A stretch of 48,978 nt of DNA from Jiangella aurantiaca (GTDB taxonomy: Bacteria > Actinomycetota > Actinomycetes > Jiangellales > Jiangellaceae), in NCBI RefSeq assembly GCF_004349105.1, contig NZ_SMLB01000047.1:1-48978 (forward strand), read 5' to 3'. The translations under genes were made by a program, and so were the position numbers. Below the pieces are notes generated by a model that had not been told where the DNA came from, searched no databases, and was given only the letters and a program-made list of their open reading frames with translations. Numbering within the stretch: the stretch's first letter is position 1; each line of letters begins with the position of its first letter. Positions 30,370 through 35,986 of this stretch are shown one piece after another.

Positions 30370-30672
30370 TCGACGGGTCCGATGGCCGTCGGGCTAGGCG
30401 TGTTCGCGGTTACGAGCAATGCATGCCTGGTGAAGCGAACACCCGTGCTTGACGTGATCAACTCGCGGCCGGAGAAGATGATCGAATAAGTCGACGGGCT
30501 TATACGCGATTGTTTTCTAGATCACCACGATCCTCTCGTCCGAGTACTCCATCGGGTGTTCGGACCATATTGCTCCAAGATCCGACATACGTCGCGATGC
30601 GTACCTAGTCTGCGAGAGAACCGCTGGTGAACGGGGTGTTCGCCGCCGGCAGGCCAGACGCGAGGGAGCCTG
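30370..30672. other. 303-bp A/T-enriched upstream region, no gene supported
   Basis: This stretch has visibly more A/T than its surroundings (for example TTATACGCGATTGTTTTCTA near 30499) and contains a TTGACG (-35-like) at 30451. It most likely carries the promoter of the 30673 gene. A tiny ORF ending at 30489 (about 20 codons) has no ribosome site. Confidence 0.5.
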
Positions 30673-33600
30673 ATGAACGAGCCGTCGATGCATGTGCGGA
30701 CCGAGCCCGCCCGAAACCGATTCGTGGCCGTCCGTCCGGCCACGGTGACGCTTCCGGCGCCGCCGCGGCGTACGCCGGAGGCGTCATTGCGCTTCCCGTC
30801 TGCCCTGGAGCCGGCCGCCACTCCGGCCATGCCGGACCGCCGCCGGCTGCCCGCCGGCGACCGTGCCGCTCTGCTGATCGGCACGGCCGTCCACGACCAC
30901 GCCGGCTATCCGCTGCTGCCGACGGCGGCGGCCGGGCTGCGGCAGTTGCGGCAGGTCCTTGAGCGTGCCGACGTGGGCATGGTCGACACGTGCGAGGTGG
31001 TCGCCGACGGCAGCCGCGGCGAGATCATGCGGGCGGTCGAGACGTTCCTCGACGAGCGCGCGCTGGCCGACACCGTGCTGGTGTACCTGACCGGCTACGC
31101 GCAGGTGTCGGGCGCCGACGGACGGCTCTATCTCGCCGCCGCCGACACCGATCCCGCGGACCTCGAGCGCACCGCCGTCCCGGCCGACTTCCTTCGCGAC
31201 CAGCTGCAGGAGTGCCGGGCGGCCAGCAAGGTCGTGCTGCTCGACGCGTGCCTGCCGGGCCCGGAGACCGACCGGTTCGCCGTCCAGCGCCGGCAGGTCA
31301 TGCTCGAGCCGGCCGGCGTCTACGTCATCTCGGCATCGCCGGCCCCGCAGCCCGCGGCCGCCATGGCCGAGCCGATCCCGCAGCTGGGCACGTCCCGGTT
31401 CACCGGCGAGATCGTCGAGGGCCTGCGCACCGGCCGGGTGAAGGACGGCCTGGGTCCGTGGGTCACGGCCGACGACCTCGCCATGTACCTGACCGCGAAG
31501 CTCACCGCGCAGGGCGTGCCGGCCGAGCAGCTGCCGGCCACGTCGACGCTGGCCGTCACCGGCAACCACGTCATCGCCCGGTCGGCGGTGCGGGCGCTCA
31601 GCCTGCTCGACGGCACCGGCCGGCGCGAGAGCCGTGACGGCCGCGGCACGCCGGCCGGCGAGGGCGGGGCCGTCGCCGTCGCCACGCCAGGGACCGCGGA
31701 CGCGGCCGGCGGCGCCGGTGCGCCGGGCGGCGACCACGGTGACCAGGTCGCCGACCCCGGCTGGCGCGAGGTCATCGCCTACTACCGCGCCTGCCTGGCC
31801 GAGGCGCCGTCGCCTGAGGCGCTGCCGGTGCGCGGCGCTGAGTCCATCGACTGGTTTCCGATGACCGACGGCGCCGAGGTGCTGATCAGCGGCGCCGAGG
31901 CGACGACGCTCGCGCCGGCCGGCGTCGACACGTTCGACTGGAAGGAGCGTGACGTCTGGTACGGGTACCCGGTCGTCACGCTCGCCGGCGCCGGCCGCCG
32001 GAACTCGGGCGACCCGCTGGCGCAGTCCACGGTCGCGCCGCTGCTGGTCCGCCGGGCCGAGGTCACCGTCGACGCCCGCGGTGCCGCCGCACTGCGTCCG
32101 ATCGGGCCGGTGCTCCCGCACACCGGCATCCTGCAGGCCTGCCTGGACGACCAGGAGGCGGCCAGCGTTCTGGCGGCCTGGCGGCAGAGCTGGAAGCCCG
32201 GCGACCGCGACCAGCTGCTGGTGGCGATCCGGCAGCTGCTGAAGCGGCTGGGCCTGGAGGAGCTGAGCCGGCTCGACCCGGCGGTGCTCGGCGCCGTCGA
32301 CCAGAAGACCGCCAACCGCACCGGCGTGCACAACACTGCCTGCGTCCTGTACGTGGAGTCCGAGCGCGCCGCGCAGCAGGCCGTCTCCGCCGAGCTCGCC
32401 GAGCTGGGGGAGCGGCTGCCCGACGTGCCCGGCACTGCGCTGGAGTTCCTCGGCAAGCCGGTCGGCTGGCGGACGACGACCCGCACCGCCGTCGCGCCCG
32501 TGCTGCCGGTCGAGCTGAACGAGAGCCAGGAGGCCGTGCTGACGGCGGCCATGTCGCGGCCGCTCACCGTCGTCACGGCGCCGCCGGGGACCGGCAAGGA
32601 CGACCTGCTCGTGGATGTCGTCGCCACCGCGGTCGCCGCCGGGCAGAAGGTGCTGGTCGCCTCGGCCGACGACGCCGCGCTGCAGCGGCTGGCCGACCGG
32701 TGCGGCACGCTCGCCACCGGCCTGCTGATCAAGACCGGCGACGCGCAGGCTCGGGCCGAGGAGAAGCAGATCGTCCGCGAGCTGCTCCGCTCGACCAAGG
32801 ACGAGTCGCGCGGCCGCATCCGCGGCGCCGTCGCCGCCGAGCTCGCTGCCGCCCAGGCGCAGGTCCGGGCCTGGCGCGACCGGTTGGTCGAGCGGAACGA
32901 CCTCGAGACGCTGCTGCGCAAGACCACCGCCGCGCGGACCACCGCGGCCGAGCGGCTGGGGGTGCCGGTCGACGTGCTGGCCGCCGCCTGGCGCGGCGAC
33001 GACGCCGGGCTGGCCGACTGGATCGAACGGGCGCGGACGCTCACCGAGACCCACCTGATGGGCGGGCTGCGCCGGCGCAACCTGGTGCTTGCCTTCCTGC
33101 GCGCCATCGCCGACGCCGGTACGGACGCCGACGCCGCCCGCGAGCCGCTGCTCGACCCGGTCGCCTTCGACTCGCTGCTGCTGTTCGCGCGGGCCGAGGA
33201 GCGGCTGCGCGAGGACCGGCGCGAGGTGCTCGCCGTCAGCGACGACGCCCTGGACCTCGAGGGCCGCGAGCTGTCCGCACGGGTGGCCGAGCTGTCCACG
33301 GAGCTGCTCACCGTCGTCGTCGCGGAGCAGGCCGGCACCGCCCGCGAGCGGCTCGAGGCGCGTCGCATCGCGCTGGAGCCTGGCGGGCGGAACCGCCAGG
33401 TCAGCCACCGCGAGCTGCTCAGCCACCTCGGCGGCTGGGCCGTCACGCCGCAGGACGCCGGGCAGCTGGCCCTGGAGCCAGGCATGTTCGACCTGGTGGT
33501 CATCGACGACGCGCACCACTGCCCGGTCTCCGCCGCGCTGCCGCTACTGTTCCGCGCCCGTCGCGCGCTGGTCGTCGGCGACCCGCGGCAGCGGTTGCGC

Positions 33601-34680
33601 GCACCCGCGCTCAGCGACCACCGGCTGCGCCGCGCCCGCCGCGGCGCTGGGCTCAGCGCCGGCTTCCTCGCCGAGCGGCGGCTGTCGTTCCGCGGCGACT
33701 CCGTCTTCGATGCCGCGCTGCCCAACGTCGAGGAGCCGCTGCTGCTCGACGAGCACAACGGCGCGCACCCGGGCATCGCCCGCATCATCGATGAGCACTT
33801 CTACGAGGGCCGGCTGACGGTCGTCACCGACGTCGGCGCGCTGCCGCGGGCGCATGACGCCGAGACCGGCGACGCGACGCTGCTGCTCTGGGAGGACGTC
33901 ACCGGCACGCCCGAACGCGGCACCAACGGCGGGTCCTGGCGCAACCAGGCCGAGATCGACCGCGTCGTGTGGGCGGTCAAGGAGCTGCGCGACCAGCTCC
34001 CGGACGACGCCACGGTCGCCGTCGTCACCCCGTTCCGGGCGCAGGCCGAGGAGCTGCGATCGCTGTTCCGGTTCGAGCCGGTGCCGGTGTCTTGCGTGGC
34101 CGACGGCGACCCGGTCGACTGCGACGCCGTCGTGCTGTCGCTGGTCGCCGGTGAGGGGATGCCGGAGCAGACGGTCCGCTGGGCGCAGGGCCAGGCGGAG
34201 CTGTGGAGCGCGGCGCTCGGCCGCACCCGTGCGCACGTCGTCACCGTAGGGCAGCATGGGTTCTGGTCGCGGCAGGCCGGGCTGCCGGCGCTGCTGGCCC
34301 GGATGTCCGCCGTTCGGTCCTTCCACGTCCGCCCCAACCCGGCGGCGCCGCTGGAGTCGGCCGTCTTCACCGACCCGCTGGTCGAGCTGCTGTGCCAGCG
34401 GCTGGCCGCGGCCGGGCACACCGAGGCCGAGCCGAACGCCGTCGTCGACGGCTACCGCGTCGATGTGCTGGTGCGGACCCCGTCGAGCAGCACCGCCGTG
34501 CTGCTCGACCGCGGCTGGCCGGGCGAGGACGCCGCCCGGCACTTGCGGCTGCTGCTGCGCCGGCGCCGGCTGCTGACCGGGCTGGTGCCGGAGTCGGGGC
34601 TGCCGCCGGTGACCCGGGTGCTGCGGGTGCCGACGTGGCAGGTTCGCTCCGGGGAGCCGATCGACGGGTTGCTCGACTGA
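30673..34680 (+). CDS. Caspase-like / SF1 helicase / nuclease-like fusion with degenerate active sites
   Basis: A 1335-residue protein. Residues 1-60 are disordered. Residues 62-310 form a caspase-like (C14) domain: RAALLIGTA, LVYLTGYAQ, RLYLAAADTDPADL, VVLLDACLPG. Cys193 is kept (QACxG position) but the catalytic His (SGHG) is Tyr142. Residues 315-360 are a Gly/Ala linker. Residues 365-1220 form an SF1 (UPF1/DNA2-like) helicase: Q-motif Gln619, Walker A APPGTGKD (Lys642 kept, Thr/Ser now Asp643), Walker B IDDAHH (945-949), motif III GDPRQ (969), motif IV HNGAHP (usual YR lost), TPFRAQ (1119), QG of motif V replaced by DP, motif VI TRA kept. Residues 1230-1335 resemble the DUF559/Vsr-like nuclease that ends many such helicases (GYRVDVLV), with ExD/ECDG reduced to LLD. 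GGGAG precedes the ATG. Probably a conflict-system protein turned sensor or scaffold (inference). Confidence 0.8.
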   Translation: MNEPSMHVRTEPARNRFVAVRPATVTLPAPPRRTPEASLRFPSALEPAATPAMPDRRRLPAGDRAALLIGTAVHDHAGYPLLPTAAAGLRQLRQVLERADVGMVDTCEVVADGSRGEIMRAVETFLDERALADTVLVYLTGYAQVSGADGRLYLAAADTDPADLERTAVPADFLRDQLQECRAASKVVLLDACLPGPETDRFAVQRRQVMLEPAGVYVISASPAPQPAAAMAEPIPQLGTSRFTGEIVEGLRTGRVKDGLGPWVTADDLAMYLTAKLTAQGVPAEQLPATSTLAVTGNHVIARSAVRALSLLDGTGRRESRDGRGTPAGEGGAVAVATPGTADAAGGAGAPGGDHGDQVADPGWREVIAYYRACLAEAPSPEALPVRGAESIDWFPMTDGAEVLISGAEATTLAPAGVDTFDWKERDVWYGYPVVTLAGAGRRNSGDPLAQSTVAPLLVRRAEVTVDARGAAALRPIGPVLPHTGILQACLDDQEAASVLAAWRQSWKPGDRDQLLVAIRQLLKRLGLEELSRLDPAVLGAVDQKTANRTGVHNTACVLYVESERAAQQAVSAELAELGERLPDVPGTALEFLGKPVGWRTTTRTAVAPVLPVELNESQEAVLTAAMSRPLTVVTAPPGTGKDDLLVDVVATAVAAGQKVLVASADDAALQRLADRCGTLATGLLIKTGDAQARAEEKQIVRELLRSTKDESRGRIRGAVAAELAAAQAQVRAWRDRLVERNDLETLLRKTTAARTTAAERLGVPVDVLAAAWRGDDAGLADWIERARTLTETHLMGGLRRRNLVLAFLRAIADAGTDADAAREPLLDPVAFDSLLLFARAEERLREDRREVLAVSDDALDLEGRELSARVAELSTELLTVVVAEQAGTARERLEARRIALEPGGRNRQVSHRELLSHLGGWAVTPQDAGQLALEPGMFDLVVIDDAHHCPVSAALPLLFRARRALVVGDPRQRLRAPALSDHRLRRARRGAGLSAGFLAERRLSFRGDSVFDAALPNVEEPLLLDEHNGAHPGIARIIDEHFYEGRLTVVTDVGALPRAHDAETGDATLLLWEDVTGTPERGTNGGSWRNQAEIDRVVWAVKELRDQLPDDATVAVVTPFRAQAEELRSLFRFEPVPVSCVADGDPVDCDAVVLSLVAGEGMPEQTVRWAQGQAELWSAALGRTRAHVVTVGQHGFWSRQAGLPALLARMSAVRSFHVRPNPAAPLESAVFTDPLVELLCQRLAAAGHTEAEPNAVVDGYRVDVLVRTPSSSTAVLLDRGWPGEDAARHLRLLLRRRRLLTGLVPESGLPPVTRVLRVPTWQVRSGEPIDGLLD

Positions 34681-34762: not shown

Positions 34763-35614
34763 ATGCGCATTCTCCGCACCGCCCTGCCCGCCACTCTGGC
34801 AGTCTTGGGACTGATGGCCGGGACCGCTCTGCCCGCTTCGTCGGCCGACCCGTCGCCCCGCGACCGGCCGCTCACCGTCATGAGCTTCAACATCCACCAC
34901 GGTGTCGGCACGGACAATCTGCTGAACCTGCAGCGGGTCGCCGACGTCATCAAGACCGAGGGCGTCGACGTCGTCGGCCTGCAGGAGGTCGACCGGCACT
35001 GGGGGGAGCGCAGCGACTTCGTCGACCAGGCCGCCTGGCTCGCCGAGGAGCTGGACATGCACGTCGTCTACGGCGCCAACCTCGACCAGGATCCGCTGCA
35101 GCCGGGACAGCCGCGCCGCCAGTACGGCACCGCGATCCTGAGCGAGCGGCCGATCCGCGAATGGGACAACACGTTCCTGCCCAGGTACGAGGGGCACGAG
35201 CAGCGCGGCCTGCTGCGCGCCCGCATCAACGTGCGCGGCGTGTGGGTGACGGTCTACAACACCCACCTACAGCACAACGACGCCAACGAGCGCCTGGAAC
35301 AGGTCGCGGCGATCGAGCAGCTGATGGGCGAGCCGGACGAGTCGGTCGTGCTGCTCGGCGACCTCAACGCGCGGCCGGAGGCGCCGGAGATCCAGGCGCT
35401 GGTCGACGAGCTCGTCGACACCTGGGAGGCCGCTGGCGTCGGCGACGGCAACACCTACCCGGCCGAGGACCCGAACGCCCGCATCGACTACGTCCTCACG
35501 TCCGACGACGTGATCGTGCGGACCGCCGCCGTGGTGTCGACGGACGCGTCGGACCACCTGCCGGCCAAGGCGGATGTCCTCCTGCCCGGTTCCCACGTCG
35601 GCCTGGGGAATTGA
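34763..35614 (+). CDS. Secreted endonuclease/exonuclease/phosphatase family protein
   Basis: The 283-residue protein starts with a signal peptide (RILRTALPATLAVLGLMAGT, cleavage likely near ASSADP). EEP catalytic motifs follow: MSFNIHHG, GLQEVDRHW (metal Glu), TVYNTHLQHND, LLGDLNARPEAPEI (Asp/Asn), RIDYVLTSDD and the final DHLPAKADV His. Extracellular members are nucleases or sphingomyelinase/phosphoinositide phosphatase-like; I cannot tell which. It follows the caspase-helicase gene by 82 bp but has its own inverted repeat and so probably its own promoter. Confidence 0.9.
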   Translation: MRILRTALPATLAVLGLMAGTALPASSADPSPRDRPLTVMSFNIHHGVGTDNLLNLQRVADVIKTEGVDVVGLQEVDRHWGERSDFVDQAAWLAEELDMHVVYGANLDQDPLQPGQPRRQYGTAILSERPIREWDNTFLPRYEGHEQRGLLRARINVRGVWVTVYNTHLQHNDANERLEQVAAIEQLMGEPDESVVLLGDLNARPEAPEIQALVDELVDTWEAAGVGDGNTYPAEDPNARIDYVLTSDDVIVRTAAVVSTDASDHLPAKADVLLPGSHVGLGN

Positions 35615-35716: not shown

Positions 35717-35986
35717 ATGACTCGCTCTGAGGTCTTGCCTGTGGTGGAGATCGTCTCGCCAGGGTCACGTCGTGCTGACCGGGTCATGAAGCTGTCCGAG
35801 TATCAGGACGCGGGTATCCCGGCGTACTGGATCATCGATCCGGCAGCCGAGGACGACGGCCGGTTCGTCGCCTACAAGTTGGTCGGTGGCGCGTACAAGG
35901 AGGTCGCGCGCGGGTCCGGCGTCGTCGCCGTCGAGCACCCGGTCCCGTTGAGCGTCGACGTCGGCGCGTTGCTGTCGCTCGACTGA
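35717..35986 (+). pseudogene. Uma2-family nuclease-like remnant (C-terminal half)
   Basis: The 89-residue ORF corresponds only to the second half of Uma2/DUF820 proteins (about 180-190 residues): [36 protein letters not shown] and a beta-rich end. The K of the catalytic core (KLSEY) and the E (VVEIVSP) remain, but the N-terminal half and its conserved residues are missing. The ATG at 35717 lacks a ribosome site. It is most simply a truncated gene; expression as a leaderless short protein is possible. Confidence 0.65.

Follow-up and report, generated by a model that had tools for sequence, protein, structure and literature searches.

A caspase-like/helicase fusion protein with replaced active-site residues in Jiangella and its apparent origin in an EACC1-caspase conflict system

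The EACC1-caspase two-gene conflict system was described as System 4 (Kaur et al., 2020, eLife; PMC7159879), and the portions of that paper used here portray an actinobacterial system in which an N-terminal caspase of the NF047832 subfamily is followed by a long and variable C-terminal part. Inactive caspases include the pseudo-orthocaspases of cyanobacteria and alphaproteobacteria, in which the catalytic His is replaced by Tyr and some cells carry the pseudo-variant alone; 3 pseudo-variants were counted among 636 actinobacterial sequences (PMC6426788, in the sections cited). Dead nucleoside triphosphatase (NTPase) cores retained within a conflict-system architecture were reported for iSTAND and iSTAND2 (PMC8195603, in excerpt). 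The 48,978-nucleotide contig NZ_SMLB01000047.1 of Jiangella aurantiaca, which was analysed whole and is termed the window, contained a gene for a 1335-residue protein that joins a caspase-like module, a UPF1-like superfamily 1 (SF1) helicase and a C-terminal domain with a predicted restriction endonuclease-like (REase-like; PD-(D/E)xK) fold (Table 1). The protein is very probably a conserved pseudo-enzyme, and its gene appears to be a former component of System 4 that, without its original partner and activities, was retained for another use and is now a core gene.

The N-terminal module of the Jiangella protein matched NF047832, the EACC1-associated caspase subfamily, with 139.2 bits for the protein itself (cut-off 140) and 143.3 bits in the genome search, and the variable domains (middle, helicase and REase-fold) were C-terminal to it, as in System 4. 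Furthermore, relatives of the protein with intact motifs had an EACC1-like gene upstream. On the other hand, the Jiangellaceae loci differed from System 4 in the lack of an EACC1 gene directly 5' (nor was an EACC1-like gene found nearby in Jiangella), a broken catalytic dyad, lost helicase motifs and a core rather than sporadic distribution. The helicase module was matched best in PADLOC by MkoA, with 84 bits here vs. 168–209 bits in three motif-intact relatives; the SF1 helicases MkoA and MkoC presumably belong to the system named Mokosh, from which the Jiangella protein differed in its lost ATPase motifs and in being fused with caspase and REase-fold modules. The pseudo-orthocaspases named in the cited sections of PMC6426788 were of the YS or YN type, with no helicase fusion among them, and iSTAND and iSTAND2 are signal transduction ATPases with numerous domains (STAND) in the excerpted text (PMC8195603), in contrast to the SF1 helicase of Jiangella. 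A first-pass annotation, which was made from the DNA letters of the window, had supposed that such a protein might not have been described. This supposition failed for the EACC1-caspase class and for the inactive effector modules of related systems, which had already been published (PMC7159879, in the portions used), but it stood for the fusion, its disarmed form and its core fixation; no paper on this fusion, its genus-wide inactivation, its fixation as a core gene or its double origin was found in the one open-access library searched.

Relatives were sought by a class-level search of 197 genomes that were evenly drawn from a larger group. Three full-length, motif-intact relatives were identified outside the family (L063 in genome G058, L064 in G122, and L065 in G057, the last as two matched pieces in one frame), and 13 full-length Jiangellaceae rows were compared with these. 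At the caspase site the relatives carried SGHG and LDCC or IDSC; their helicases read PGTGKS, DEASQ, GDxxQL, H(Y/F)RCHP, FQGGE and NVA(I/V)TRAR. In the Jiangellaceae, the His-Cys dyad of an active C14 peptidase was broken by Tyr142 in 13/13 proteins, and the motif set of an active SF1 helicase or of Mokosh (GKT/S, DE, motif IV Arg and QG) was not retained. Asp945 of motif II was kept in 12/13, both Lys642 and Asp945 were gone in L028, and motif VI was eroded to a variable extent across the 13 proteins. Pfam Peptidase_C14 gave no match in the window protein at an expectation value (E) of 1, and the three motif-intact relatives scored 58–89 bits. A pseudo-orthocaspase is a caspase fold with at least one residue of the dyad replaced, and the Jiangellaceae proteins would, by their sequences, belong to this category (His to Tyr in 13/13, Cys kept in 12). 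The three-module fusion with replaced caspase and helicase residues, as first annotated, was thus confirmed, and comparison with the three intact relatives placed these residues at catalytic positions. The annotation had also claimed active-site loss in all three modules, which did not hold for the C-terminal one: its site read LLDRG here, the intact relatives had LLDRG, VLDPG and IVDRA, and (D/E)xK was absent from all. The atypical C-terminal site is therefore older than the catalytic loss, because the motif-intact relatives have it too. Other stretches were conserved in the 13 Jiangellaceae proteins yet unlike the intact relatives, such as VDTFDWKERDVWYGYP (window spelling, residues 418–433; 14/16 columns invariant), and these lineage-specific stretches suggest new constraints.

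Orthologues were present in 12/12 Jiangella genomes and in 2/2 genomes of one sister genus. The remaining eight genomes of the family gave no full-length match; two of them were less than 90% complete, and two had weak helicase-only matches. Identity to the window protein was 94% in J. rhizosphaerae (two pieces), 92% in J. endophytica, 90% in J. muralis, 89% in J. anatolica, 86% in J. ureilytica, and 69% in J. asiatica. Thirteen of the 14 orthologues were full-length and open, down to 61% identity, and the fourteenth (J. rhizosphaerae) was split by contig ends. NF047832 matched once per genome in 12/12 Jiangella genomes, with no second caspase of the class at E 0.001, so no intact class copy is available for the disarmed protein to regulate. 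The mean ratio of nonsynonymous to synonymous substitution rates (dN/dS) was 0.25 (nine species, 36 pairs), and within the main clade the means of the individual parts ranged from 0.15 for the caspase module to 0.59 for the linker, the two extremes. Values against the window copy were 0.16–0.25 in four species. The neighbouring genes gave 0.15–0.29 for an endonuclease/exonuclease/phosphatase-family (EEP) gene, 0.20–0.23 for a presumed dehydrogenase gene, and 0.26–0.34 (2/5 species) for a third neighbour, and two relatives whose helicase motifs are intact gave 0.255 when compared with each other. With orthologues that are open, widespread, syntenic and constrained, the annotated view of a pseudo-enzyme from a conflict-system lineage, rather than a decaying copy, was upheld.

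The region directly upstream of the gene was nearly invariant in Jiangella. Of 160 alignment columns, 141 were invariant in nine species, compared with 264/653 four-fold sites. Across five species, the upstream block had 139/152 invariant columns vs. 57/82 and 65/105 upstream of two neighbouring genes, the latter control region being situated mostly within the end of another reading frame. The core of the block, CCATCGGGTGTTCGG, was retained in the sister genus. A promoter-like pair was noted by eye (-35 CCGACA at 30582–30587 and -10 TAGTCT at 30606–30611, 18 nucleotides apart), a consensus promoter scan of the block found no promoter, and an inverted repeat (GTCCGA/TCGGAC) was located at 30538–30565.

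Motif-intact copies were sporadic at E 1e-60, being found in 2/35 genomes of the order of G058 and in 1/121 genomes of the family of G122. A small protein of one shared, EACC1-like type was encoded directly upstream of each of the three intact copies, and also of a fourth copy, which has a broken frame and was checked for helicase motifs only. These upstream proteins matched EACC1 in position and rough layout (PMC7159879), and only 1/3 was strongly hydrophobic. A profile built from three of these upstream proteins located such a gene near 5/9 other caspase loci (L052, L053, L055, L057 and L060; downstream in L052). In genome G208, a caspase-helicase relative whose helicase motifs are intact was spread over two frames (L072 and L073) in a many-contig draft, which reflects either a sequencing error or a real break.

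A second group of disarmed helicases was identified in another actinobacterial family (f17), in which five caspase-less or caspase-remnant relatives (L084–L087 and L049) shared the middle domain, the helicase and the C-terminal domain. As in Jiangella, catalytic helicase residues were lost (the Lys of motif I and the DE of motif II in 5/5) and the neighbourhood was recurrent. In contrast to Jiangella, the caspase was absent or a remnant, and genes for a PucR-type regulator and an Fpg/Nei-type DNA glycosylase were nearby. The regulator was upstream in 4/5 loci (directly in 3), and the glycosylase was downstream in 5/5, directly in four and with one gene between in L092; it was named by Pfam in L089 and by 71–87% identity in the other loci. 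In two trees built with the motif columns removed, the Jiangellaceae clade (support 100/100 in both) and the f17 clade (100/100 and 100/99) were separate, and the f17 clade grouped with the intact L065 (97/94 and 99/98). A single inactive clade was rejected (approximately unbiased test, p-AU 0.00074). These sequence comparisons point to a probable origin of the f17 helicases independent of those in Jiangellaceae, with the long branches calling for caution. Genome G057 carried both the motif-intact caspase-helicase L065 and a disarmed caspase-less paralogue, L087.

The best overall explanation for the Jiangella gene is a domesticated pseudo-enzyme that works by binding rather than catalysis, for which a probability of about 0.6 is estimated. 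That it is merely a decaying conflict gene, with active sites lost at random, is extremely improbable, even though several observations agree with decay. Motif-intact relatives exist, which had been annotated as a sign by which decay would be recognized, and they were indeed found; decay itself was not shown, and the gene was kept under constraint. The linker is fast-evolving, and the motif I Lys is gone too in two species. Against J. asiatica, the gene had a dN/dS of 0.416, roughly double the values of two neighbours measured with that species (0.21 and 0.22), and is thus clearly less constrained on that deeper comparison. Furthermore, at positions where the three intact relatives have the same residue, with retention in at least 80% of the 13 rows scored as kept, catalytic residues were lost about as often as the others, both in the helicase (16/30 vs. 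53/130; Fisher p 0.23) and in the caspase (2/4 vs. 18/46; p 1.0). The loss was therefore not targeted, and the coordinated loss that had been proposed from the window was not supported. Untargeted loss is still notable, since active enzymes are not expected to tolerate such replacements. Against decay stand the open reading frames of 13/13 full-length orthologues at identities as low as 61%, the presence of the gene in 14/14 genomes across two genera, the conserved upstream block, and main-clade dN/dS values that resemble those of neighbouring enzyme genes, with pairwise values already pointing to a ratio well under 1. An enzyme that still acts by unusual chemistry, with Cys193 working without His or ATP turned over with Lys642 and Asp945, would agree with the retention of these residues in 12/13, 11/13 and 12/13 proteins, respectively, but it is very unlikely, as none of the 13 proteins retains the Ser/Thr of motif I, the Arg of motif IV or the QG of motif V, L028 lacks both Lys642 and Asp945, and Cys193 is Gly in L034.

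Two further explanations assign the protein a different role. As an immune decoy or dominant-negative factor, a dead helicase or caspase would bait a phage inhibitor or poison active copies borne on mobile elements. Such roles were proposed for inactive effectors of related systems by Kaur et al. (2020; PMC7159879, in the portions used), and G057 does contain an intact protein beside a disarmed one, but a decoy is expected to be variable and patchy, and no second class caspase was found in 12/12 Jiangella genomes. This explanation fits less well because the gene is constrained, single-copy and in every Jiangella genome examined, where it is also syntenic, and it is considered rather improbable. 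A housekeeping scaffold of DNA or RNA metabolism unrelated to defence, for instance one regulating repair or decay complexes, is unlikely, if a little less so: its core-gene behaviour, the fixed neighbourhood and the glycosylase gene of the f17 loci agree with such a role, whereas the Jiangella neighbours (an M23 peptidase, the EEP enzyme and the dehydrogenase) are not repair genes, and neighbourhood alone establishes no functional link. For the domesticated pseudo-enzyme, a non-catalytic binding scaffold is put forward as the mechanism at slightly below even odds. The helicase core and the REase-fold tail would hold nucleic acid or nucleoprotein without ATP turnover, the pseudo-caspase, as the most constrained module, would offer a surface on which a peptide or a partner could dock, and the whole protein may act as a sensor, adaptor or scaffold under tight transcriptional control. 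These binding partners are suggested by analogy with inactive NTPase modules, which were proposed as nucleic-acid receptors in related systems (PMC8195603, in excerpt), and with dead caspases, of which cFLIP is one example (PMC6426788, in the sections cited). Several observations speak against this interpretation, besides the untargeted loss and the higher ratio against J. asiatica. The predicted structure of the caspase-plus-middle part had a mean predicted local distance difference test (pLDDT) score of 36.8, so the caspase fold is drawn from sequence only. Motif Ia contacts nucleic acid, and its change from TNN to ADD in the Jiangella protein means that nucleic-acid binding is not assured and may be lost. 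Lys642 is kept in 11/13, and ATP might thus still bind in most species. No EACC1-like open reading frame (ORF) of at least 50 amino acids was detected with the above profile in the Jiangellaceae stretches examined, the rest of the genomes not having been searched, and an EACC1 gene may lie elsewhere.

The EEP gene was directly downstream in 16/16 loci (13 genomes) besides the window, and the dehydrogenase gene was farther downstream in 11/16; of the five remaining stretches, four ended before the place where it would lie. As judged by eye, the EEP protein of Jiangella begins with what resembles a signal peptide, and that of the sister-genus metagenome-assembled genome, as called (L067 1177–1980), does not. 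A Uma2 gene at window positions 35717–35986 represents the C-terminal part only (profile positions 98–165 of 172), and a longer Uma2 copy was located at the same place in J. endophytica (L094 3977–4585, positions 2–165). A PADLOC scan of two neighbour genes, with no wider search made, recognized no Mokosh partner. The family search of the protein gave no match for the middle domain. A 911-residue antisense open frame (window 30784–33519, minus strand) was taken as a shadow frame of high guanine-plus-cytosine DNA.

Table 1. Coordinates of the gene, its modules and replaced residues, and of related features (positions refer to the window unless a locus is named).
Feature	Position	Strand	Remarks
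Upstream block, nearly invariant in Jiangella	30515..30672	+	141/160 columns invariant in nine species
Whole gene, pseudo-caspase/pseudo-helicase/REase-fold protein	30673..34680	+	1335 aa
Caspase-like module, aa 59–312	30847..31608	+	NF047832 match 65–279
Tyr142, replaces catalytic His	31096..31098	+	GYA in 13/13 Jiangellaceae; His in 3/3 intact relatives
Cys193, catalytic Cys position	31249..31251	+	Kept 12/13; Gly in L034
Low-complexity linker, aa 313–361	31609..31755	+	Weak constraint, mean dN/dS 0.59
Middle domain, aa 362–610	31756..32502	+	Common to motif-intact relatives; includes VDTFDWKERDVWYGYP (418–433)
SF1 UPF1/IGHMBP2-like helicase core, aa 611–1215	32503..34317	+	
Motif I, Lys642-Asp643	32596..32601	+	Ser in intact relatives; Ser/Thr in 0/13; Lys to Ala in L028, L029
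Motif II, Asp945-Asp946	33505..33510	+	DE in intact relatives; DD or HD in Jiangellaceae except DE in L033
Motif IV, Gly1030 replaces Arg	33760..33762	+	Arg gone in 13/13
Motif V, aa 1146–1149, DPVD replaces QGGE	34108..34119	+	QG gone in 13/13
C-terminal REase-like predicted fold, aa 1230–1335	34360..34677	+	Asp1264, Asp1279 kept; without canonical (D/E)xK
EEP gene	34763..35614	+	Next downstream gene in all 14 orthologue-holding genomes
Disarmed caspase-less helicase relatives	L089 7360–10491; L090 6979–10116; L091 7530–10505		
Disarmed helicase relatives	L092 6625–10341; L093 6913–9813		Caspase remnant at L093 N-terminus

Annotation by family name ("caspase" or "AAA helicase") would mislead for the Jiangella protein. 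The intact relatives with an EACC1-like gene and the disarmed clade of 14 genomes without one nearby form a natural series, which allows one to ask what persists in a bacterial conflict protein that is still of value after its catalysis has gone, and suggests that bacterial immune-type enzymes can become core regulators, more than once. It is possible, though rather doubtful at present, that multicellular actinobacteria repeatedly disarmed an EACC1-caspase-helicase conflict gene, by loss of its protease and motor activities, and made what was left a core regulator that is non-enzymatic and under tight control, with at least two origins (Jiangellaceae and f17). If true, this would be a bacterial parallel to the dead caspases and helicase-type receptors of animal immunity.

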